From NCBI RefSeq assembly GCF_000186865.1, contig NW_008705572.1:83384-147383 (forward strand): 64,000 nt of DNA, read 5' to 3'. Under the pieces are notes generated by a model. That model searched no databases and was not told the DNA's origin. It saw nothing but the letters and a program-made list of their open reading frames with translations. Both the position numbers and the translations under genes were made by a program. The stretch comes from Aureococcus anophagefferens. Lineage: Eukaryota > Sar > Pelagophyceae > Pelagomonadales > Pelagomonadaceae. The stretch's first letter is position 1. Each line of letters starts with the position of its first letter. Below, piece after piece: positions 1-60,635 of the stretch.

Positions 1-7
1 CCGCGCG

Positions 8-199
8 CAGGGCAGGACAAGAGAGCGAAATTCCCAACTTCAAAGCCTCATATCTCGGCCGTTTTCCACTCGTTTCGGCTGATTTTTGGACGAGCGATCA
101 TCTCTCGGAACGCTCTCGAAGCGTGGATGCTTTTCCCGGAACGCGCGCGCGCGGAACACTCACGTTGAAGCGACGTTGAATCACCCTTGTCCTGCCCAG
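8..199 (+). mobile_element. Family A introner (intron-forming DNA element), copy 1
   Basis: A 192-bp element with terminal inverted repeats: it opens cagggcaggacaag and closes cttgtcctgcccag. The 8 bases after it (200-207, gccgcgcg) are repeated before it; seven of them (1-7) lie inside the window and the first would be the base just outside. The element is the body of an intron ending in AG at 198-199. Close relatives lie at 36195-36386, 58538-58729 and 60163-60353. Introner elements with inverted repeats and target duplications are described for Aureococcus; the family assignment is from pattern, not a search. Strand is set by convention so that this copy is plus. Confidence 0.9.
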
Positions 200-950
200 G
201 CCGCGCGAGGAGCCGACGGAGCCGCCGCCGACGCTCGCGCCGCCGAAGACCTTCGCGGACTACATCAAGGAGCGCGACGCGCCGACGCCGGGGCCCGCCG
301 TGGGGGCGCGGGCCGTGCCCGTCGAGGACCTGGGGGTCGTCGAGGACGAGGACGAGGACGACGTCGCGGCGGCGCCCCAGAAGCCGCCGGTCGCTCCGGA
401 CATCGACGACGACGACCCGATCCAAATGCCGCCGCTGGCCGAGGACCTCGGCGTCCTCGACGACGACAGCGAGGACGAGGCGGCCGCGCCCGCGCCGCCG
501 CCCGCCCCGGCGCCCGCGCCCGCGCCGAAGCCGCCGCCGCCCGTCGCGCCGGACCTCGACGACGACGACCCGATCGAAATGCCGCCGCTCGCCTCGCCCT
601 TCGTTCCGTCGTCGCCCGCCTCGTCCCCGCGCGCGACCGCGCCCGCGCCCCGGGCGAGGCCGACGCCCTCGTCCGCGCCGCCGCCGCACTCGTCGTCGGA
701 CTCGGACGAGCCCGCGCCGCCGGCGCCCAAGCAGCGGTCGACGTCCCGGTGGGCCATCCACAAGCCGGAGGGCTGGGTGCCGAAGTCGCAAAGGACGCCC
801 GAGGCGGCCTCGCCGCCGCCGCGCAAACAGAAGCATCCCATATCGCCCCAGGCGACGACGCCGGTGCCGCCGCGGTCCTTCGCCGCCTTCATGAAGTCCC
901 GGAAGCCCGGGGAGACGCCGACGACGCCGAAGAGTCGGACCGTGCGGTAA
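200..950 (+). CDS. Acidic Pro/Asp-rich repeat protein, 3' exon (5' part outside window)
   Basis: The 3' exon of a gene that starts before the window and is interrupted by the introner ending at 199. The frame is open from the splice acceptor to a stop at 948-950, giving about 249 residues. The protein is low-complexity: Glu/Asp runs, poly-Pro/Ala stretches, and a duplicated block of the form PVAPD(I/L)DDDDPI(Q/E)MPPL. Two related short motifs bracket it, KTFADYIKER near the exon start and RSFAAFMKSRK near the end, which may be a repeated peptide motif. No enzyme domain is visible. The stop overlaps a possible GTAAGC donor at 947 with a TTGCAG acceptor ending at 1028; using that intron would extend the protein by about 35 residues. 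Function unknown. Confidence 0.6.
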
Positions 951-9305: not shown

Positions 9306-10294
9306 AGCGGTCCGCGCGGCAGTCGCGGCGCGCGGGCTCCGCGCGCGCGTCGCCGCCGCCGTCGTCGTCCTCGAGGGGGTCCTCGTCGAGGCGCGTCACG
9401 GCGAGGTTCAGCGGCGCGACGTCCAAGGGCGGCGTGTTGAAGGCCTCCTCCTTCGCGAGGCGCGTCTCCTCCTGGACCGCGAAGGCCGCGTCGCGGTGCC
9501 TGTGTGGAAATCAACCACTGGTTTGGGACGTGCTGACCAAACTTTGAAATTCTCTCGCTCGGTCACATCGAAGTCGATTCGGCTGATTTTTGGACGAATC
9601 GATGGCTCTCGTCGAGTTCTCGAAGCACGGCTGAAGATCCTGGTCCAAACCGTTCGATTACGCGCACATTGAAGTCAGCGTGAAGATTTGAGTTCCACAC
9701 GGCGCGGTGCATGCCCTGGACGAACTTGAGCGTGATGGGCCGCGCGCCCTCGCGGACGCGGCGCTGCAGGTTCCGGAAGAAGCCCGGCCGGTGGACGTCG
9801 ACGAGCAGGACGCCGTCGACAGCAACCAACTCGTCGCGCGGCCGGAGCGCCGCGCAGTCGCAGTCGAGGCCCGTGGAATCGACCTCGACGAACTCGCGGC
9901 CCTTGGCGCCGTAGCGCGCGAGCGCGACGGTGAACCGGAGCCGCGGCGCCCGGAACGTGTGCTCAAAGGTCAGCCCGCGCTCGTCCATGCGCGCGACGTG
10001 CTTTTTCAGGAGTCGGGTCACGCGCTCGACGGCCTCGGCCCGCGCGCCCGCCTTGGCCTCGTCGAACGCGTCGTCGAGGAGGTCGCGCGACTTCGCGGGC
10101 ACGGGCGACGTCGACGGCAGGAAGGGCGACGTCGGGGGCGGCGACCCGAAGGCGTCCGGCGACGTCGGGGGCGGCGGCGACCGCGACCGTGATGCGTCTC
10201 TAAACAGCGACCGCGCCGATTTGGGTATGATCGGCGGGGGCGAATCGCTCCGGGGGCCTCCACCGCCCTCGCCGCCGCCCGTGCCGCCGCCCAT
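9289..10294 (-). CDS. PDZ-like protein with CaaX-type C-terminus (introner-containing)
   Basis: Two exons, 10294-9711 and 9499-9289, give 264 residues; the joined length is a whole number of codons. The intron is the family B introner with a GC donor supplied by the target duplication gcaccgcg. The first 65 residues are Gly/Pro/Ser-rich with repeated SPPPTSP motifs. A folded region follows; residues about 150-195 (RPRDELVAVDGVLLVDVHRPGF ... RPITLKFVQG, quoted as two pieces) resemble the second half of a PDZ domain, with the ligand-binding first half unclear. The protein ends DRCCFAF, so its last four residues form a C-a-a-X box that could be prenylated. A membrane-attached scaffold is plausible but inferred. 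Confidence 0.65.
9500..9702 (+). mobile_element. Family B introner, copy 1
   Basis: A 203-bp element inside the minus-strand PDZ-like gene, flanked by an exact 8-bp duplication (cgcggtgc at 9492-9499 and 9703-9710). Read on the minus strand it opens ccgtgtggaactcaaatc and closes gatttccacacag, so the ends are inverted repeats. The core at about 9577-9625 (ttcggctgatttttggacga) is identical over 20 bases to family A and similar further on, while the ends are different. The intron runs from 9710 to 9500 and is GC-AG. Confidence 0.88.
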
Positions 10295-18254: not shown

Positions 18255-20008
18255 ATGCTGCGCCACCTCAAGAAGTTCACGGTCTACTCCTCGGTGATCG
18301 TTGCTGGCCAGGCCTCTCGCGCCCTCGACAACGCGCCCGCCGGGCAAGATGAGTCCGAGGACGCCGAGGACCTGCTCCGTCGACTCTCCGAGTGCGAGGA
18401 CGCTTCCTACGTCCAGATCTTCGGCGACTGCTACGACCCGGATACGACGGACCTGCGAGCTGCCCCCGCGCCCCCGATGCGCGCCGCGCGACCGACCCTC
18501 GGCGTCGCAGGGACCTAGTGAATTTCTACTACGGTGGCTACTACTACGGCCGCCCCGATATCACCGGCACGATCCCGACCGAGATCGGCCTGCTCACGGC
18601 GCTGACGTCCCTGCGAGTTTCCCCCGCGTCCCCGACGCCCGGCGCGGCGCGCGACCGCCCCTCGGCGTCGCAGGGACCTCCCCGGCGGCGATATCTCCGG
18701 CACGTTCCCGACCGAGATCGGCCAGCTCACGGCGCTGACGTCCCTGCGAGTTCCACCCGCGTCCCCCGACGCCCGGCGCGGCGCGCGACCGCCCCTCGGC
18801 GTCGCAGGGGTCTCCGCGACAACAAGATCACCGGCCGGATCCCGACCGAGATCGGCCAGCTCTCGGCGCTGACGAAGCTGCGAGTTCCCCCCGCGTCCCC
18901 GACGCCCGGCGCGCCGCGCGACCGACCCTCGGCGTCGCAGGTGGCTCAACGACAATCAGCTCGACGGCCCGATCCCGACCGAGATCGGCCAGCTCACGGC
19001 GCTGACGTCCCTGCGAGTTCCACCCGCGTCCCCCGACGCCCGGCGCGCCGCGCGACCGACCCTCGGCGTCGCAGGTGGCTCGACGGCAACAAGATCACCG
19101 GCCCGATCCCGACCGTGATCGGCCAGCTCACGGCGCTGACGTACCTGCGAGTTCCCCCGCGTCCACGACGCGCGGCGCGCCGCGCGATCGCCCCTCGGCG
19201 TCGCAGGTGGCTCAACGACAATCAGCTCGACGGCCCGATCCCGACCGAGATCGGCCAGCTCACGAAACTGGACTTCCTGCGAGTTCCCCCCGCGTCCCCG
19301 ACGCCCGGCGCGGCGCGCGACCGCCCCTCGGCGTCGCAGGTTCCTCGAAGACAACGAGATCACCGGCCCGATCCCGACCGATATCGGCCAGCTCACGGCA
19401 CTGAATTCCCTGCGAGTTCCCCCCGCGTCCCCGACGCCCGGCGCGCCGCGCGACCATCCCTCGGCGTCGCAGGCATCTCGGAGACAACCAGATCACCGGC
19501 CCGATCCCGACGGAGATGGGCATGCTCACGAAGCTGGGGTACCTGCGAGTTCCCCCCGCGTCCCCGACGCCCGGCGCGCCGCGCGACCGCCCCTCGGTGT
19601 CGCAGGTACCTCGAAGACAACAAGATCACCGGCACGTTCCCGCTCGCCCTCTGCGACGCCGAGCATTGTTCCGCCAAGTCCGGCAACGACCTCGTCGCGC
19701 CGTGCGGCACGACGGGCTGCTGCGATCTCGCTTCTCGTCCGGCGGCCTGCTCCTCGTCCGGCGGCGGCGACGCGTGCTCGGGACTCGCGAAGAAGACCTG
19801 CAAGAAGTCCGCGGGCTGCGCGTACAAGAAGAAGACGTGCATCTCGTGCTCCGAGCTGTCGAAGAAAAAGTGCAAGAAGACCGACGGCTGCGACTACAAG
19901 AAGAAGCAGTGCACCTACTCGTGCTCGAGACTGTCGAAGAAAAAGTGCAAGAAGACCGACCGCTGCAAGTACAAGAAAAAGAAGGACAAGTGCCTCGCCA
20001 AGAAGTAG
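18255..20008 (+). CDS. Leucine-rich-repeat protein with Cys/Lys-rich C-terminal repeats
   Basis: Ten exons from the first in-frame ATG at 18255 (true start may be upstream): 18255-18454, 18511-18612, then seven 72-bp exons from 18674 to 19544, and 19606-20008; 402 residues. All nine introns are 56-62 bp, phase 2, start GCGAG and end GTCGCAG or GTGTCGCAG. Each 72-bp exon is exactly one 24-residue plant-type LRR (pattern WLNDNQLDGPIPTEIGQLTA). Using the GT four bases inside each intron would destroy the LRR frame, so the GC donors are required. After the LRRs come three copies of a Cys/Lys motif (CSELSKKKCKKTDGCDYKKK type). No membrane span or kinase is visible. A recognition or adhesion role is typical of the fold, but not shown. 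Confidence 0.8.
18674..19605 (+). repeat. Tandem exon+intron units of the LRR gene
   Basis: Seven consecutive units of about 133 bp, each a 72-bp LRR exon plus a nearly identical 60-62-bp intron (gcgagttcc ... ctcggcgtcgcag). Introns as well as exons are conserved between units, so whole exon+intron blocks were duplicated. One exon type (WLNDNQLDGPIPT) occurs twice almost unchanged, at 18941-19012 and 19207-19278, suggesting a recent two-unit duplication. Confidence 0.9.
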
Positions 20009-35200: not shown

Positions 35201-37019
35201 GCTCCGGGCCCTCGAGCAGCTGCTCCTCGCGGCGGTGGCTCCGCACGACGCCGCGGAGCCGGTCCGCCGTCGTGCCCGACGCCGTCACGCGGAGCGTCCG
35301 CTCCGCGGCCTCGAGCGCCGCGGGCCCCTTGTGGAGGCCCGCGCCGTGGTAGACGCCGCACGCGGCCAACACCACCGGCGCGTCGGCGAGCCGCGGCAGC
35401 CAGCGCAGCATGGGCAGGTCCACCAGCCCCCGCCCGAGACGCACCTGCTCCCGGGAGACGACCAATTGAAGCGCGGGCTCCTCGAGGAGCGACCGCCGCG
35501 CCTCTCCGAAATCCGCGTCGCCCGTCGCGTCGACCGCGGCCGCGAAGGCCTTCGGCTGGGAGAAGAAGCTCCAGACGGTGGACGCCGCGGCGTCGCCGGC
35601 GGCGGCGCGGTCGCCGCCGTCGCCGCCGAGGTCCAGCGTCGCCCTGATCCACCGCTGGAGCACGTCGCGGCCCGCGGCCTCGTCGCGCTTCCGCCGCGCG
35701 CGCGCGTCGCGGCTCCCCGGCGGCGGGCTCCCGAACCAGACCAGGTTCGTCTCCGCGCCGCGCTTCCAGGGCTGCATGACGGTGCCCAGGGCGGCCCGCA
35801 GCGCGCCCCGGCCGGACGTCGCGCCCTCGAGGAACCGGAGGTCCGTCGTGCACTTGGTCAGGTAGCACGCGCCCTTCCAGAGGAACGCGCCCGGCCGCCA
35901 CTGGTAGCAGCGCCAGGCGGCGACGGCGCCGACGACGCGCGCCGTGCTCACGTTCACGGCGGCGAGGGCGCCCCTGAGCTCCTCGAAGACCAGGGCCGCC
36001 GCCGACGACGGGTCGTCGACGAGAGAGTCGTCCTCGTCCTCGGGCGCGGAGAGGCCGCCGCGCCCCGGCGCGGCGCTCCCCAAGGTGACGAGGCGCCGGT
36101 AGCACGCCTTGATCTCGCGGACCTGCTCCTCGCGGCGCCGCACCTCGCGCAGCACCCGGAGCGTCGCCGCGCGGAACCGGACCAGGAGCTGCACCTGGGC
36201 AGGACAAGAGAGATTCAACGTCGCTTCAACGTGAGTGTTCCGCGCGCGCGCGTCCCGGAAAAAGCATCCACGCTTCGAGACCGTTCCGAGAGATGATCGC
36301 TCGTCCAAAAATCAGCCGAGACGAGTGGAAAACGGCCGAGAAAGGAGCCTTTGAAGTTGGGAATTTCGCTCTCTTGTCCTGCCCTGAGCTGCACGTGCGC
36401 CGCCAAAGGGCCGCACCGCGCGTCCGGCGGCCCGCGCTCCGCGTCGTTGTGGTTCCAGATGTGGCCGCCGAGCGTCGCGTCCGGCGGCGGCGTGCGGCTC
36501 CGGCTCGCCGACGGCTTCTGCTTCTTCTTCTGGGACGACTTCTTTTTGGTCCCCGACGCGGGAGGCGGCGAGCCGACGCGCGCGCGGTCGAGGAGCGTCG
36601 GCGCGCGCCGCGCGGGCGTCCCGAGGGCCGGCGACGGCGACCGGCCCCGAGCCGGCGCGCTCTTCGGCCGCCGCGTCGGCGTCGTCCCGGCGAGCGCCGC
36701 GTTCTGCCGCGCGATCTGCCGCCGCCGGCCCGCGGACGCGGGGCGGCCCGCGCCGTCGACGTGGACCTCGACGCGCCGCGCGGCCATGATCGCCGTCAGC
36801 GACCGCTCGGGCAGCCCGAGGCTGCCCAGGAACAGCTTCTGGTCCTTGGCCGGCACCTTGAGCTCCTGCCACAGCGCCTCGGCCTACGCGGGGTCGTGTG
36901 TGAGGTGTCATATTTTGATCGCTGATTCTCACCCAGCAGAGCAGCGCCTCGATCTTGTGCGGGTGCTTCTGCGCACCCGTGTCCATGGAGATCTCCAGCG
37001 GCGGCGTCGCCGCGCCCAT
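32250..37019 (-). CDS. Large scaffold-like protein with IQ-like and PDZ-like segments (introner-containing)
   Basis: Three exons, 37019-36933, 36883-36395 and 36194-32250, joining to 1506 residues in phase. The first intron is GT-AG (GTGAGA); the second is a family A introner with GT from the target duplication. The N-terminal 190 residues are basic and low-complexity apart from a conserved-looking start (IEALLCWAEALWQELKVPAK). The middle includes an IQ-like helix (AARRLQRSFRLKK), possibly binding calmodulin, and a PDZ-like stretch (VVVRVDAGSRAEKLGVMHGW). A long region rich in aromatic and charged residues follows, with RLLLLIDASRG and IPRIVV-type beta strands near the C-terminus that look like a Rossmann or NTPase-like fold without a clear P-loop. 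Function unknown; a cytoskeletal or signalling scaffold is a guess. Confidence 0.65.
36195..36386 (-). mobile_element. Family A introner, copy 2
   Basis: 192 bp inside the large minus-strand gene, flanked by an exact 8-bp duplication (agctgcac at 36187-36194 and 36387-36394). Read on the minus strand it has the same orientation and ends as the copy at the window start. The intron (36394-36195) begins with GT, the first two bases of the duplication, and ends with the AG of the inverted repeat. Removing it restores one copy of the target and an unbroken frame. Confidence 0.93.
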
Positions 37020-44100: not shown

Positions 44101-46912
44101 TTCTCCTGCCTCTGCTTCGAGGACGACGGCGACGGGTGCACGGTCATCGGCGCGCCCGCGCCCGCGCCGACGTTCGCGTACTCGGCGGACGACTGCGCGG
44201 CGGCCCAGGGCTACGCGCTCGACATCGTCACGCGCACCTGCAAGCCGGACGTCGCCGTCAAGGACCGCGGCTGCTACCCGCGGGCCAACTGCGACGCGGA
44301 CTACGCGGCGCGCTTCTGCGACTCCATGACCTGCATCCCGCAGGGCTTTGAGCAGGAGTGCACGGGCGCGGCCCGGCGCCCCGAGTTTCGAGAGACTCCG
44401 ACGGAACGCCCCGCGGCTCCGACGAGTCTCGAGAGAGTTCGGCCGGGAACCCGATCGACGCGCGGTAGGCATGGCCTCGTTCTCCGGCCACGGCCCCCGG
44501 CCCCAGCTCTACCGCTCCGACATGTTCGACACGTCCAACTCCGTCGGGGGCCAGTCGAACCAATACGCGGACCTGGCGCAGACGACGCGCGAGTACTACG
44601 GCCTCACGATGTACACGCGCATTTTACGGGTCATGGAGAAGGACATCGGCGAGCCCGTGTCGAGCGCCGCGGCGGACATGGCCCAGTTCGGCTACCTGGG
44701 CCAATGGGTCGCGCCCTTGGCGCGGACGGAGTTCGACATCGCCGGGAGCTACCACGCGACGGCCATGGCGTCCATCGAGGGCGGCGTCTACAACAACAAC
44801 AACCTCGGCGCCAGCCGCCTCCCCAAGTACGTCTTTTCCCAACAAATCGGCGGCGGCCGACGGTTTCCGCGTAGGTACCTCGCCGGCGGATCCATGTACG
44901 GCTACACGCCCGTCTCCGACGTCGGCCGCGGCTGGGGCTTCCAGGAGATGGGCATCGCCTGCAAGCGCGGCTCCGCCGTGTTTTTTTTTTGGGGGGGGGT
45001 CGTTTTGTTTCCGCTGTCGTGCCCGCCACACGATGACCACGGTCCCTCTACGCGCAGGTACCTGGGCCTCGTCACCATGGCGAACCGGGTCATCGTCCCC
45101 GTGTCGGGCTACGGCTTCGAGGCGACGCAGGACGAGCACGAGGACGACGGCGGCATCTTCCTCGGCGCGGGCTGGGTCGTGTTGCCCATCTTCCCCGGAG
45201 GCAAGATCCGCAACCGGACGACGTTTCTCGGCGACGAGGACTTTGGGCTGACGACGTGGACCCACGTCATCGACACGGCGCAGTACAGCGGCCCGCTCCT
45301 CGCGTACGCGCCGCAGTTCTGGATCCGGCGCCTCGAGGGCTGGTGCGAGCAGAGCGAGGCCTACTACGGTGACGGAGGGCTGGGCGAATTGGACTTCTCC
45401 TACCCCGGCGACACCTGCCCGCGCGATTTCTACGAGTACGAGCCGGACGCGTGCTGCGTGAACCCGTCGGTCTACGACACGTTCGCCTATCGCGGGGCGG
45501 ACTGGTGGCCGTCGACGGGCGGCGAGTTCCCGGGGCTCGAGGGCATCTTCGAGGACTACACGGACAGCGGCGAGGATCTGCCGGACTCGTACGAGGGGCC
45601 GACCTACTGGAAGATCCCGCAGATCAACTACCCGAACTACACGGACTCGGAGCTGTGGCAGGCGAACGCGCGGACGTACAACGCGGACACGTACGACCGT
45701 TGGCTCGAGGTCTTCGCCTACGCCGGCGAGTCCGACGACGAGCTCGAGGCGCTCTTCGCGAACTTCGACACGCGCTTCAACGGGTCCTACCACATGAACA
45801 CCTACGGCGCCTACTTCGACCTGGGCCTCACGTCCCTGGTCTACGAGGACGCCATGTACATGGACATCGAGAACGGCGTGTCCTCGGACGAGTACTACGA
45901 GGACGTCGGCACCGGCGACGACCTCGACCCCGTCGAGACGAACATCTTCTACGAGTGGGAGGGCGCCGAGGACCGCGTCTGGACCCGCTACTACAAGACG
46001 ACCTACACGCCGGGCCGCAAGACGCGCTACGGCAACCAACCGGGGGAGAACCAGTCCTACTACGCCGCCGAGCCCATCGACGAGAGCGAGGCGCCGGAGA
46101 GCCTCCGGGACGCGGAGTACACGCTGCCGCTGTGGGGCCGCGCGAACTACGTCAACCACGAGCGCCAGGAGAACGCGACCTTCGACTACGACGACACGAC
46201 AAACAAACGCGGCTGGAACGAGACGGATCACTGGTGCTGGGTGCGTCCCAGCGTCCCGTGGCATCGAGAGATGTTGACGACGCGAAACCGGAGATAATCG
46301 CGACGCGCAACCGGAGATGTTCGCGACGCGAAACCGGAGATGTTCGCGTCGCGCGAAACCGGAGATGTTCGCGACGCGCGAAACCGGAGATGTTCGCGAC
46401 GCGCGAAACCGGAGATGTTCGTGACGCGCGAAACCGGAGATGTTCGCGACGCGCGAAACCGGAGATGTTCGCGACGCGCGAAACCGGAGATGTTCGCGAC
46501 GCGAAACCGTCGCGCCCGGTAGGTCTGCACGGACTCGAGCGAGTGCGAGCTCGAGACGCGGACCCTCGTCCTCGAGTCGACGGCGACGCTCTACTACCGC
46601 TGGTACCGCTGGCGCGACCAGCCGGCCATGAAGCAGCTCACGCAAGAGTACCCCGACGTGTACACCGAAGAGGTCCTCGCGTCCATGCAGAAGCGCGTCG
46701 AGCTCATGCACGAGTACTGGCAGGAGAAGGACTTCATCAAGAAGGCCACCAAGGTCAACCACAAGGTCGAGCTCGACTACCGCATGATAATCGACATCCC
46801 CGACAACATCCCCGACTACGGCTGGGTCCCCATCTCGGTCGCGGAGATCTACGAGGACAGCACCGGCTACGGACCCGGGAACTCGGCCGGCTTCCAACCC
46901 AACATTTGGTGA
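41133..46912 (+). CDS. Membrane-anchored protein with six eight-cysteine modules
   Basis: Eight exons: 41133-41862, 41922-43440, 43514-43993, 44055-44365, 44469-44826, 44875-44979, 45058-46240, 46523-46912. They join in phase to 1691 residues. A membrane span near residues 40-62 (IVGAFVVVAAIVSGLGLILA) with no signal peptide before it suggests a type II protein. Next is a SEA-like or stramenopile surface domain, then six modules of about 70 residues with pattern C-x5-CC-x5-C-x-C, GSNG, W-x-GY, then C and a closing CxC (GGYAKWCACV type), separated by PT/PS linkers. The last 680 residues form an Asp/Tyr-rich domain I do not recognise (starting MASFSGHGPRPQLYRSDMF). Introns two, three and four appear to be GC-AG. 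A cell-surface, matrix or binding role is inferred. Confidence 0.75.
42118..42259 (+). repeat. 42-bp tandem repeat in a PT-rich linker
   Basis: Three near-perfect copies of a 42-bp unit encode the 14-residue repeat SAAPTTGAPTSAAP in the linker between the first and second Cys module. A minisatellite inside coding sequence, kept in frame because the unit is a multiple of three. Confidence 0.85.
46279..46509 (+). repeat. Minisatellite inside intron 7 of the gene at 41133
   Basis: Nine copies of a unit of about 25 bp with core gaaaccggagatgttcgcga. Copies are nearly identical. Between adjacent cores lies ttcgcgacgcgcgaa, a small inverted repeat (six-base arms, three-base loop), so the array could form a row of hairpins. 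The host intron (46241-46522) has a consensus GTGCGT donor and GGTAG acceptor. Confidence 0.92.
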
Positions 46913-48079: not shown

Positions 48080-50010
48080 ATGAATTCGCGGCCCCCGCGC
48101 GACGCCCGCTGCGGCTCGTGCGGCTCGGACCCCGGCTTCCACCTGTCCTCGCCCACGGAGCCCGTCCCGGCGCTGGCGCCGCCCTTCGGGGGCGCCGCGC
48201 AGGCCATGGGCGAGTGCAGCCTCTGCCTCATGCCCTACAGCGACACCATCGTGCTCCGCTGCGGCCACCGCTTCGACACGGCGTGCCTCGCGCGGTGCCA
48301 CGCGCACGACATGGACCGGTGCCCCATCTGCCGGCGGCGCCACGAGCTCGACCCCGGCGCGCTGCGGTCGCGGCTCAAGCAGCACCGCGACGGCTACCGC
48401 AACTGGCGCATGGGCGCGTCCAAGGGCGCGAGCGGCCAGCTCGGCGGGCCCAGCGGCATCTTCCGGTCCTCGCCGGAGAAGGAGGCGCCGCCGCGGGCCG
48501 CACCGGCGCGCGCGCCGCGCGCGCTCGGCGACCCCGTCGGCGCCGCGCTCCGCGGCGTGCAGGCGCGCCGCCCCCGCGTCCGCCGGCCCCGCGCCCCCCG
48601 ACCCGCGCCGCCCGCAGGTCTTGGATTTTGGCCAGTACGTCGCCGGCCCGCTCTGCGCGTCGCTCCTCGGGGACCAGGGCGCGACCGTCGTCCGCATCGA
48701 CCCGCCGGGCGGGCCGCGCCGCGGCTGCGGGCCGGGTTTAGGCGCGCTGCGAAGCCGCGCGCGCGCGGCCGTGCGCCTCGACCTGCGGCGCTTCGGCCAC
48801 CGCGTCCTCGCCGCCGCGCTCCTGCTCCGCGCGGACGTCCTCGTCGAGAACTTCGCGCCCCGGGTCCTCGCGTCGCTGCTCCTCGGCGGCGAGAACGACG
48901 GCCGCGGCAGCCCGGAGGCCGTCGTCGCGAGGCTCGCACCGCGCTGCGTCTGGCTGGCCATGCCGGGCTTCGCGTCGTCGGACCCGACGCCGCGGCCCGA
49001 GGCCTGGGACGGCGTCGTGCTCGCCGAGTCGGGCGTGCTCCGCGACGCGGGCCTCAACCGCCCCCTCCGGGGCGTGCCCGTGTCCTACACGTCCCTGCCC
49101 CTGCCGTCGGCGCGCGCGCGGCGTCCGCCCTGCGCGCGGCGCCGCCGAAACCCACGCAAAACGTAGGTCTACGCGGCGATCCTCGGCGCCGTCGGCGCGG
49201 TCTTCGCGCTGAACGCGCGGCCGCGCCGCGCGCTCGAAGGGCGCAAGGTCGTCGGCGACGTCGTCGAGGTGCCCCTCGCGTCCGCGACGCTCGAGGCCCT
49301 CGTGCACAACTCGCTCGAGTTCGCGGCGCCCGCGGACTACGCGGACGACCGCGCGGCGGCGCGCCGCGTGGAACTCAAATCTTCAACCCGACTTCAATGT
49401 GAGCGCATGCGACACAAGCTTCGAGAAGTCGACGAGAGCCATCAATTCGTCCAAAACTCAGCCGAGCTGGAGAATGTCAAAGTTCCCAGCTTCACCGGTC
49501 GATTTCCGCGCAGGCGGCGCTCCGCGACCGGCCGCCCGGCGCGCGGCCCTGGACGGCGCGCGAGCTCGACGACGTCGCCGACCCCTTTTATCGGGTCTAC
49601 GCCTGCGCCGACGGCCGGTCGGTCTACCTCGTCGCGCCCGCGCACGCGGGCCACCAGGCGCGGTGCCTCGAGGCGGTGCTCGGCGAGGCCAAGCTCCCGG
49701 TCGCGGACCCCTACGCCGCGAACGGCGCGCGCCACGGCCTCGGCGGCATGCGGTCCACGGCGTCGCCGGAGGCGCGGCGCGCGCTCGCCGCGGCGCTCGA
49801 GGCGGCCTTCGCGACGCGGACCGCGGACCGGTGGACGGCGATCCTCGCGGACGCGCGCGTGCCCGCGGCGCCCGTGCAGACCGTCGACGAGTGGCGCGCC
49901 TCGGCCCACGCGCGCGACGCGGGCCTCTGCGTCGACGGCGCCTGCGGCCGCCTCGCCTGGCTCCGGGAGACGGAGCTCGCGGCGCCCGCGGCGCCGCTCG
50001 AGCGCGCGGT

Positions 50011-58174: not shown

Positions 58175-59235
58175 CTACCCGAGGTCCTTCAGGGCGACGT
58201 CGGCCCAGGCCGCGGCGACGCGCGGGAGCTCGGCCGCGAGCGCCGCGGCGGCGGCGGACGCGTCGCGCCGCGCGCCGGCGTCCTCGAGGAGCGCGAGGGC
58301 CGCGCGCGGGAGGTCGCCGTAGGCCGCGAAGCGCACGCCGCGCGCGTAGAGCGCGTCGAGGTCGCGGTCCGCGGAGGGCTCCGAGAGCACGCACGCGCCG
58401 CGCTGGAGCAGGTAGTTGAGGCGGTGCGTCTCGAGGGCCGCGCCCTCGTAGAAGTGGGCGTTGAGCACGACCGTCGCCCGCCGCGCGGCGTCGTCGCGCG
58501 CGGCGCCGAAGAGGTCGAAGCCGAGGCGGAAGTCGACCTGGCAGGAAAAGAGTGCGACATTCCCAACTTTGGAGACTGATATCTCGGTCAGTTTCCACTC
58601 GTTTCGGCTAATTTTTGGACGAGCGATCATCTCTCGGAGCGTTCTCGAAGCGTGGATGCTTTTTCCGGAACGGTCGCGCGCGGAACACTCACGTTGAAGC
58701 GAACTTGAATCACCCTTTTCCTGCCCCGGAAGTCGACGCGGTAGCCCCGCGGCGCGAGCAGCGCGGCGCACGCGTCCCGCAGCGCGGCGCGCCGCGCGTT
58801 GCCGCAGCCGTAGAAGAGCAGGTCCGCCGCCGGCGCCGGCGACGGCGGCGGCGCCGGCCCGAGGTCCGGCGGCGCGAGCGGCACGTAGGCGACGCGCCGC
58901 GCGGCGGCCGCCCAGCGCGGCGCGTGCGACGGCGCGAACTCCCAGAGCGCGTCCGCGCGCGCGACGAGGGCCAGGTAGGCCGGCGTGAGCCAGGCGCTCC
59001 CGAGCTGCTCCATCTGGTAGACGACGAAGCGCCGCGGCGGCGGCCAGGGCGCGTCGCTCGGCGCGACGCCGGGCAGAAGCGTCGCGCCGACGAGGACCCA
59101 GAGCTCGTCGTCGGAGACCCAGGGGCAGGCCTCGACGCCGACGTCGACGCGCGCGGCGACGCCCAGGAGGCGCAGCGCCGACCGCAGGCCCTCGGCGGCC
59201 TCGAGGAAGACGACGTTGCCCGCCCAGAGCCTCAT
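58175..59235 (-). CDS. Glycosyltransferase-like protein (introner-containing)
   Basis: 286 residues from exons 59235-58738 and 58537-58175, split by a family A introner. The joined frame is continuous through GYR and VDFRLGFDLFG. The second half (VVLNAHFYEGAALETHRLNY, then LLQRGACVLSEPS, then VRFAAYGDL) resembles the C-terminal nucleotide-sugar-binding half of GT-B-type glycosyltransferases of the kind that act on cell-surface glycans; the E near the end of such a stretch is typical. The first half has a WTPPAYLALVARADALWEFA-like region without a recognised motif. No signal peptide, so a cytosolic active site is likely. The start codon overlaps the stop of a short upstream frame. Confidence 0.65.
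58538..58729 (+). mobile_element. Family A introner, copy 3
   Basis: 192 bp between two copies of aagtcgac (58530-58537 and 58730-58737). In plus orientation it resembles the window-start copy, so relative to its minus-strand host gene it is inserted the opposite way to copies 1 and 2. Ends have drifted (ctggcaggaaaag and cttttcctgcccc). The intron (58737-58538) is GT-AG, with GT from the duplication. Confidence 0.92.
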
Positions 59236-59698: not shown

Positions 59699-60635
59699 AT
59701 GAGCGCCCTTGCCAACACCATTGAAACGCCCTACCTCGACCTGACGAAGTTCGTGCCGGCCGCGGCGCTCGACGAGCTCGATCGCTATCTGCTGGAAGAG
59801 GGCATCGGCGGCGCAAACAACGCAGCCCAGTGGTCGGCCTTCCTCGCCGATGATTCGAAGCACAGCGAATGCGTGGAGCTCTGCGACAAAGATACGTCGA
59901 GCTGGCCGGAACTCCGCCGCGACGCCGAGGAGGCCTTCGCGACGTGCCGGCGGCGCCGGGGCGACGCGCGGACGTGGCGGCCGAACGCGAACGGCGAACG
60001 GCTGCCCGGCGTCTTCGACTTCGTCCGAGCGTCGCCGATCTTCAGCAGCACGGGGAAAATTGCGATCCTCAAGAACGAGCGCGGCTGCCGCGGCGTGGAG
60101 CACGTCGACCACCGCCTGCCGGACCTCGTCTCCGAGTTCGTGTGGGTCCGGCCCGCGTGGTCCAGGGCAGCAAAAGGGTGATTCAATGTCTCTTCAACGT
60201 GAGTGTTCGCACGCGCGCGTTCTAGGAAAAGCATCCACGCTTCGAGAGCGCTCCGAGAGATGATCGCTCGTCCAAAAATCAGCCGAAACGAGCGGAAAAC
60301 GACCGAGATAGGAGCCTTTGAAGTTGGGAATTTCGCACCCTTTTGCTGCCCAGGCGTGGTCGACGAAACAGTTCTTCGTCAAGGACGCGTGCCTGCGGAC
60401 GCACGTCGTGCCGCCGTCGGTGCGCGTGCTCTGGTTCGACGACCACCTGCCGCACGGCATCCATCCCGTCGACGCGGACGCGCAGGTCTCCATCCGCGTC
60501 GACGGCGTCTTCCGGCCGCTCTTCCGCGAGTACGTCTGCCGGTTCGGGATGTTCGGCGATGTCGGATTCGACGGCGTTTCGCTGGCGGCGGTGCTCTGGG
60601 CGCAGGCGCCGCCGGAGGGCGACGATGGTGGCTAA
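59699..60635 (+). CDS. 2-oxoglutarate/Fe(II) oxygenase-like protein (introner-containing)
   Basis: 245 residues from exons 59699-60154 and 60354-60635. The GC-AG intron is a family A introner between Pro and Ala-Trp-Ser. The residues that would bind iron are HVD (in GVEHVDHRL, exon 1) and a distal His in LPHGIHP (exon 2), followed by an Arg for 2-oxoglutarate (SIRVDG). This is the H-x-D ... H ... R layout of the superfamily. Sequence identity to any named member is not evident, so the assignment is tentative. No targeting signal. The introner separates the two halves of the metal site. Confidence 0.5.
60163..60353 (-). mobile_element. Family A introner, copy 4
   Basis: 191 bp between exact 8-bp duplications (gcgtggtc at 60155-60162 and 60354-60361). 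In plus orientation it opens cagggcagcaaaagggtg and closes cacccttttgctgcccag, the reverse of copy 1. It is therefore inserted antisense to its plus-strand host gene, yet still ends in AG. The intron 60155-60353 is GC-AG; using the internal GT would shift the frame. Confidence 0.93.

Follow-up and report, generated by a model that had tools for sequence, protein, structure and literature searches.

Introns that probably arose by insertion of a mobile DNA element in Aureococcus anophagefferens

Four closely similar segments recur in different genes of a 64,000-nucleotide stretch of Aureococcus anophagefferens DNA, the whole of which is referred to here as the window. A first-pass annotation read them as introns created by the insertion of a transposon-like element, and the question that the locus raises is whether a jump of mobile DNA can have made an intron in a single step. 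Introners are a leading explanation for bursts of intron gain. Our analysis indicates that the four copies are very probably introners, specifically non-autonomous, MITE-like DNA transposons of A. anophagefferens or a very close relative, with splicing predicted from the sequence. New introns in this genome would thus probably come from jumping pieces of DNA that are spliced from the message.

The four copies, which we call family A, were found where they had been annotated, at lengths of 192, 192, 192 and 191 bp (Table 1). A pairwise repeat search of the window paired them at 86-95% over 143-196 nt, in direct or inverted orientation. The proposed 8-bp direct repeats are exact at 8/8 positions around copies 2 (AGCTGCAC), 3 (AAGTCGAC) and 4 (GCGTGGTC). 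The left repeat of copy 1 is cut by the window start, and seven of its eight bases are visible; the first base, the would-be donor G, lies before the window start and is N in the genome record. Inverted-repeat ends had been claimed for every copy. Copies 1 and 2 have the terminal inverted repeat (TIR) GGGCAGGAC/GTCCTGCCC in its exact form, variants of it (GGCAGGAAAAG.. and GGGCAGCAAAAG..) are present in copies 3 and 4, and the terminal CAG is not inverted. Two tandem arrays also occur in the window, one of about nine 133-bp units at 18479-19689 and one of mostly 25-bp units built on CGCGAAACCGGAGATGTTCGCGACG at 46261-46528.

Table 1. Positions in the window of the family A copies, their target duplications and the copies of a second introner family
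Feature	Position	Strand	Description
Copy 1	8..199	+	192 bp; inside left-half-first in gene sense; ends CAGGGCAGGACAAG..CTTGTCCTGCCCAG; predicted 3' splice AG 198-199
Copy 1, left target duplication	1..7	+	CCGCGCG, 7/8 bases visible
Copy 1, right target duplication	200..207	+	GCCGCGCG
Copy 2	36195..36386	-	192 bp; predicted intron 36195-36394, minus strand (GT..AG)
Copy 2, target duplication	36187..36194	.	AGCTGCAC; exon side in gene sense
Copy 2, target duplication	36387..36394	.	AGCTGCAC; minus strand GTGCAGCT, predicted 5' splice site
Copy 3	58538..58729	-	192 bp; inside right-half-first in gene sense; predicted intron 58538-58737 (GT..AG)
Copy 3, target duplication	58530..58537	.	AAGTCGAC; exon side
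Copy 3, target duplication	58730..58737	.	minus strand GTCGACTT, predicted 5' splice site
Copy 4	60163..60353	+	191 bp; inside right-half-first; predicted intron 60155-60353 (GC..AG)
Copy 4, target duplication	60155..60162	+	GCGTGGTC, predicted GC 5' splice site
Copy 4, target duplication	60354..60361	+	GCGTGGTC; exon side
Second introner family, copy one	9500-9702		203 bp; exact 8-bp duplication CGCGGTGC
Second introner family, copy two	about 49350-49530		core match

A search of the 49.05-Mb assembly (86 contigs) with a 19-base core of the element gave 1,415 exact matches and none for the reversed control, which excludes chance. A second core word was matched six times in the window at up to 3 mismatches and never in shuffles; four of these matches lie in the family A copies and two in the related second family. 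The exact 14-base end CAGGGCAGGACAAG is present at 327 places in the genome, and each of the 50 that were fetched (L009-L058) holds a full-length element of 189-192 bp, so longer relatives with exactly the same end are uncommon at best. The fetched loci and the window together yielded 127 copies, with copy 1 counted through locus L001; nine other BLAST pieces, cut off or from a related family, were set aside. The target duplication agrees at 8/8 positions in 108 of the 127, at 7/8 in 12 and at fewer in 7. A genome-wide search had been proposed as the check on the introner claim, and it returned both the abundance and the target duplications. Copies with poorly matching duplications may be old or recombined. 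At L018, L060, L063, L064, L094, L109 and L112 the 8-bp flanks agree at only 4-6 positions and both begin with G plus a pyrimidine in gene sense; these are possibly chimeras produced by recombination between introners.

For all further counts the copies were oriented by their ends alone, which succeeded for 120 of the 127. Left out were five copies with CTG..CAG ends and two odd ones, one of them window copy 3, where automatic anchoring was one base off. The 120 were obtained through the exact 14-base end (55), intact CAG..CAG ends (53), similarity to copy 1 (8), the window (2) and CTG..CAG loci (2). The last two, L117 and L118, are anchored one base off and belong to the seven CTG..CAG loci that were fetched deliberately.

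If the elements are introns, their removal should restore a gene. Excision of the element with one repeat was said to leave a continuous frame, and for copies 2, 3 and 4 it does, with joined exons open over 663, 372 and 273 aa; the upstream exon of copy 1 lies outside the readable sequence. Unspliced, the frames of copies 2, 3 and 4 reach a stop 177, 108 and 24 nt beyond the junction. Pfam scans of four host proteins returned no match. Across the genome, removal of the element and one target copy (199-200 nt) brought together flanks that are coding in the sense direction in 115 of the 120 sampled copies. The codon model learned from 25 long, high-GC3 frames and made no use of the element ends; an earlier model had trained itself on antisense shadow frames and was dropped, and the model was rebuilt by GC3. 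The other five copies comprised one scored as antisense (the misanchored L118) and four scored as neither, two of which have a neighbouring introner within the flank. By comparison, random 248-nt stretches of the window (n = 3,000) were scored as coding on the plus strand in 46.7% of cases, on the minus strand in 30.9% and as neither in 22.4%, and shuffled stretches (n = 1,500) were coding in 0% at the same threshold. A second sample was drawn by the core alone, from the first 100 of the 1,415 places: 60 lay in elements already listed with CAG..CAG ends, and of the other 40, which were fetched, 37 were judged by eye to sit within coding DNA of the predicted sense (exceptions L241, L272 and L279). 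One locus, L278, belongs both to these 40 and to the 127. Many similar copies exist, each a predicted intron, and those of the window lie in different genes.

Homologous proteins were compared at the predicted junctions. The search with the copy 4 host found 18 homologues, and eight of the nine that were aligned run without a gap across the junction VWVRPAW/STK, among them a protein of Pelagophyceae sp. CCMP2097; the exception, P0005, diverges upstream. For the copy 3 host, ten were found and nine aligned, and five of these have no gap at the junction R/VDFRLGFD: P0019 (98%), P0021, P0022, P0025 and P0027, the last from Chrysophaeum taylorii and with a 2-residue gap three residues ahead of the junction. 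The remaining four are not clean, P0020, P0023 and P0026 having element-derived residues and P0024 diverging. Four annotated A. anophagefferens proteins match this host gene at 60-98%. The near-identical proteins may derive from transcripts, gene models or empty alleles. The homologues without a gap lend indirect support to exact splicing.

The splice sites themselves appear to have two sources. Read in gene sense, the exon-side target duplication begins with G in 119 of 119 copies (L118 left out), as GC in 70, GT in 46, GA in 3 and GG in none. From the frequencies of dinucleotides starting with G in the sense coding DNA of the window, 52.3, 14.0, 22.4 and 30.4 would be expected, respectively, so that GT is enriched 3.3-fold and GG is absent. 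Positions 3-8 of the duplication and the flanks depart little from background; the largest departure is a modest surplus of G at position 6 (p = 0.002, uncorrected). At the other border, the outgoing end of the element in gene sense is CAG, a predicted 3' splice site. One splice site is therefore predicted to reside in the element and the other to come from the duplication. Such a one-sided, donor-like spectrum would not come from a symmetric transposase preference, and an internal donor would not require it. Among the sampled copies, a spliceosome-like donor preference (GT > GC >> GA, no GG) acts as a filter on transposon insertions.

These features fit a simple mechanism. A transposase, whose role and kind we infer, would act in trans and insert the 191-192-bp element by an 8-bp staggered cut. 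Where the duplicated 8 bp start with GT or GC in gene sense they would provide the 5' splice site, and the outgoing CAG of the element would provide the 3' splice site. The excised intron would consist of one target copy and the element, leaving the message unchanged. The sequence supports the first-pass view on each point: an introner, TIRs, an 8-bp target duplication and an intron made by the insertion.

A different 5' splice site could be used in part of the family. In right-half-first copies (e.g. 58538-58729, minus strand) a consensus donor, GTGAGT, lies 45 nt into the intron (CTTCAAC/GTGAGT); were it the main 5' site in these copies, 45 nt would be added in frame. GTGAGT is a strong donor consensus, and one annotated A. 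anophagefferens protein, JL720_5183 (P0020; transcript basis unstated), has at the copy 3 junction an exact 15-residue insert, GRKRVIQVRFNVDFR, that is encoded by the initial 45 nt of the intron and is equivalent to use of this donor. However, the duplications of right-half-first copies keep the G-pyrimidine start as strictly as the others (GT or GC in 42 of 43, GA in 1), and P0019, 98% identical, lacks the insert. We regard GTGAGT as an improbable main site; it is likely a source of annotation errors or alternative splicing.

Still less probable is that the element carries both splice sites, with a donor at CAGG/GCAGG and 12 nt added to the message at each insertion. This arrangement has a precedent in another Aureococcus sp. 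introner family, where the part of PMC9860276 available to us (Fig. 2F) gives 4 bp of introner plus the 8-bp duplication, and GC stands at the proposed donor place in window copies 1, 2 and 4. Yet with such a donor no G-pyrimidine would be needed at the start of the duplication, where it is found in 116 of 119 copies. The resulting 4-residue insert is absent from the homologues that run through the copy 3 and copy 4 junctions, and the 5'-terminal CAG can vary to CGG or CCG.

Two further explanations fare worst. Spread through RNA, with excised introns reverse-spliced into messages and returned to the genome, would agree with the near confinement of sampled copies to coding DNA in the splice-competent sense, but it is largely refuted and has very little probability left: the duplication differs between insertions and is the same on both sides of each, whereas reverse splicing would bring along the first 8 nt of the donor intron, and the TIRs are conserved while the inside faces either way. 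Equally hard to credit is that these are ordinary MITEs lying unspliced and by chance in open frames, since TIRs and target duplications are common to any MITE but the G-pyrimidine/AG constraint, the stop codons that the frames of copies 2, 3 and 4 reach when unspliced, the 115 of 120 sense-coding locations and the gapless homologues are not expected of them.

Under the preferred reading, insertion of an element that brings the 3' splice site and borrows the 5' one, the ends of the element deserve attention. Exact counts over the whole genome, for elements of 176-206 bp, found intact CAGGGCAG..CTGCCCAG ends (CAG..CAG) at 1,136 places and CAG..CTG ends at none. CTG..CAG ends occur at 14 places; by eye, seven are genuine and seven are another 5' end following a chance CTGGG. 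The pattern C(G/C)G..CAG has 244 places, of which the first 100, inspected by eye, comprised 80 with G, 12 with C, seven overlaps of the kind just described and one unrelated sequence. Window copy 3 has CCG at its 5' and CAG at its 3' end in gene sense. Wherever the ends are resolvable the outgoing end is CAG in gene sense, except in one odd copy (L031_2548), and the incoming base is most often A, less often G, more rarely C and almost never T.

The inside of the element can face either way between these ends: of the 120 copies, 77 are left-half-first and 43 right-half-first. On a tree of the insides (119 rows; no branch starred) the orientation label needs 6 changes, against ~35 in shuffles, which indicates that each orientation corresponds mainly to a lineage of its own, with a few switches. 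An origin of the equal ends from a circle junction was considered and dropped, because the 5' base is also G or C and the end type is mostly inherited, as those label changes attest.

Folding offers one explanation for the shortage of T. In predicted folds of 60 introns, drawn from 97 that were eligible, the 3' splice site had its A unpaired with a probability of 0.92, 0.96, 0.91 and 0.03 when the incoming base was A, C, G and T, respectively, and with an incoming T this splice site would be buried in all 60 folds. The G of the 3' AG was paired more than the A in each case (unpaired 0.35 with A, 0.07 with C, 0.37 with G and 0.07 with T). Against the interior mutation spectrum (8 T among 47 changes from A), T is depleted at the incoming base with p about 2e-11, for ~231 non-A copies scaled from the first 100 of the 244 places and subject to the caveat that the copies with G may form a subfamily that inherited it; set against C alone (~29 copies, scaled in the same way) the depletion is borderline (p = 0.05). 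Two copies of the related family B retain a T-A pair. These mixed results suggest that an end mismatch keeps the 3' splice site open.

The distribution of copies between coding and non-coding DNA is also uneven. G-pyrimidine makes up ~20% of sense coding dinucleotides. In a neutral model in which one exonic insertion in two is wrongly oriented and survival requires a G-pyrimidine target, exonic survival would be ~10%, and non-coding DNA at 5-22% of the genome would hold 35-74% of the surviving copies. The classifier placed 4 of 120 copies in non-coding DNA (P = 3.9e-9 even against a plain 22.4%), a comparison in which most of the 120 had been selected for intact ends and the non-coding share comes from the window alone; the 40 loci of the second sample had been selected for an intact core. 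The count ranges from 0 to 6 of 120 across thresholds of 5 to 20, with 6 at the strictest. The direction of this bias was already known: the part of Gozashti et al. (PMC9860276) available to us gives 161 of 175 genomes with introners as enriched for them in genes. Its size suggests either that insertion is aimed or that copies in non-coding DNA are lost rapidly, and so low a number there is hard to square with neutral non-coding insertions.

Taken together, the ends and the distribution allow a tentative proposal, which we consider possible rather than probable: family A consists of one-way introners, in which a single non-inverted end base sets the usable sense (C(A/G/C)G..CAG), with two mirror lineages that fill the genome, each usable in one direction only, and a related family that has two-way copies, and with insertion, as well as survival, aimed at coding exons. 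In such introners the 5' base would mispair with the splice-site A at the 3' end, so that this A stays out of the TIR hairpin.

A source of transposase was sought with protein profiles. Neither the hAT profile PF05699 nor the KDZ profile PF18758 matched the genome, and the controls for both were also silent, so these absences weigh little. The MULE profile PF10551 had no genome match, with its control positive in 4 of 14 genomes, and the best Merlin-type match (E = 0.097) fell below the cut-off. PF21787 (TNP-like RNase H), which we take to be of P/THAP9 type, detected a single relic on contig 25 (178372-178818, L280/L282; E 1.4e-9) with three TAG inside. No introner end (CTGCCC) is present on its readable right side; on the left, 3,862 of 9,501 bases are N. 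Among the hAT, KDZ, MULE, P-type and Merlin-type profiles only this relic passed the cut-off, and none tied a mobilising transposase to family A. A viral origin was considered and rejected. The 19-base core matched one IMG/VR contig (L119) over 20 bases, and the contig reads as phage by its tail-like genes. The TIR 14-mer occurs in at least 120 viral stretches, but 121 viral loci had neither an inverted partner within 6 kb nor any of four interior words, and these matches were taken as chance for that reason.

Among known transposons, the hAT and P superfamilies make 8-bp duplications, and hAT ends are CAGGG. Family A resembles them in the length of the duplication and in a CAGGG-like 5' terminus; it differs in that the genome has no hAT profile match (control silent) and that the P-type relic shares no TIR on its readable side. 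Closer to hand, the second family in the window shares with family A the 8-bp duplication and the core TCGGCTGATTTTTGGACGA but has a different TIR, TGTGGAA/TTCCACA. Of seven copies examined, with ends resolvable in all but three (the window copy at 49 kb, L012 and L024), two (L029 and L034) have CTG..CAG ends, with AG outward both ways.

The A. anophagefferens introners that Huff, Zilberman and Roy described in Nature in 2016 are reportedly a short non-autonomous DNA transposon with TIRs and a target duplication, one splice site being carried by the element and the other, it is said, co-opted from the duplication. Family A agrees with that description in each of these respects. The window copies match this Aureococcus introner (Huff et al. 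2016) and are in that sense already known; the first-pass annotation was right that introners are established for Aureococcus, so the four copies exemplify a type of element already described. The portions of later papers available to us state that, as reported by Huff et al., the elements insert in either orientation and between nucleosomes (PMC10228655) and that the characteristic length is about 210 bp (PMC9481584). In the excerpts of the introner literature that we covered, a set apart from the source work on A. anophagefferens (Huff et al. 2016), we found no mention of the CAG..CAG end rule. Introner family 4 of Aureococcus sp. TARA_AOS_82_MAG_00129 (Gozashti et al. 2022, PMC9860276) is, in the part of that paper available to us, like family A a spliced transposon of Aureococcus with an 8-bp duplication; it carries both splice sites and adds 12 nt, whereas family A appears to borrow its 5' site and to add nothing. 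What the present analysis adds is the non-inverted terminal bases, the two mostly separate orientation lineages and a scarcity of copies in non-coding DNA well beyond the prediction for neutral insertion.
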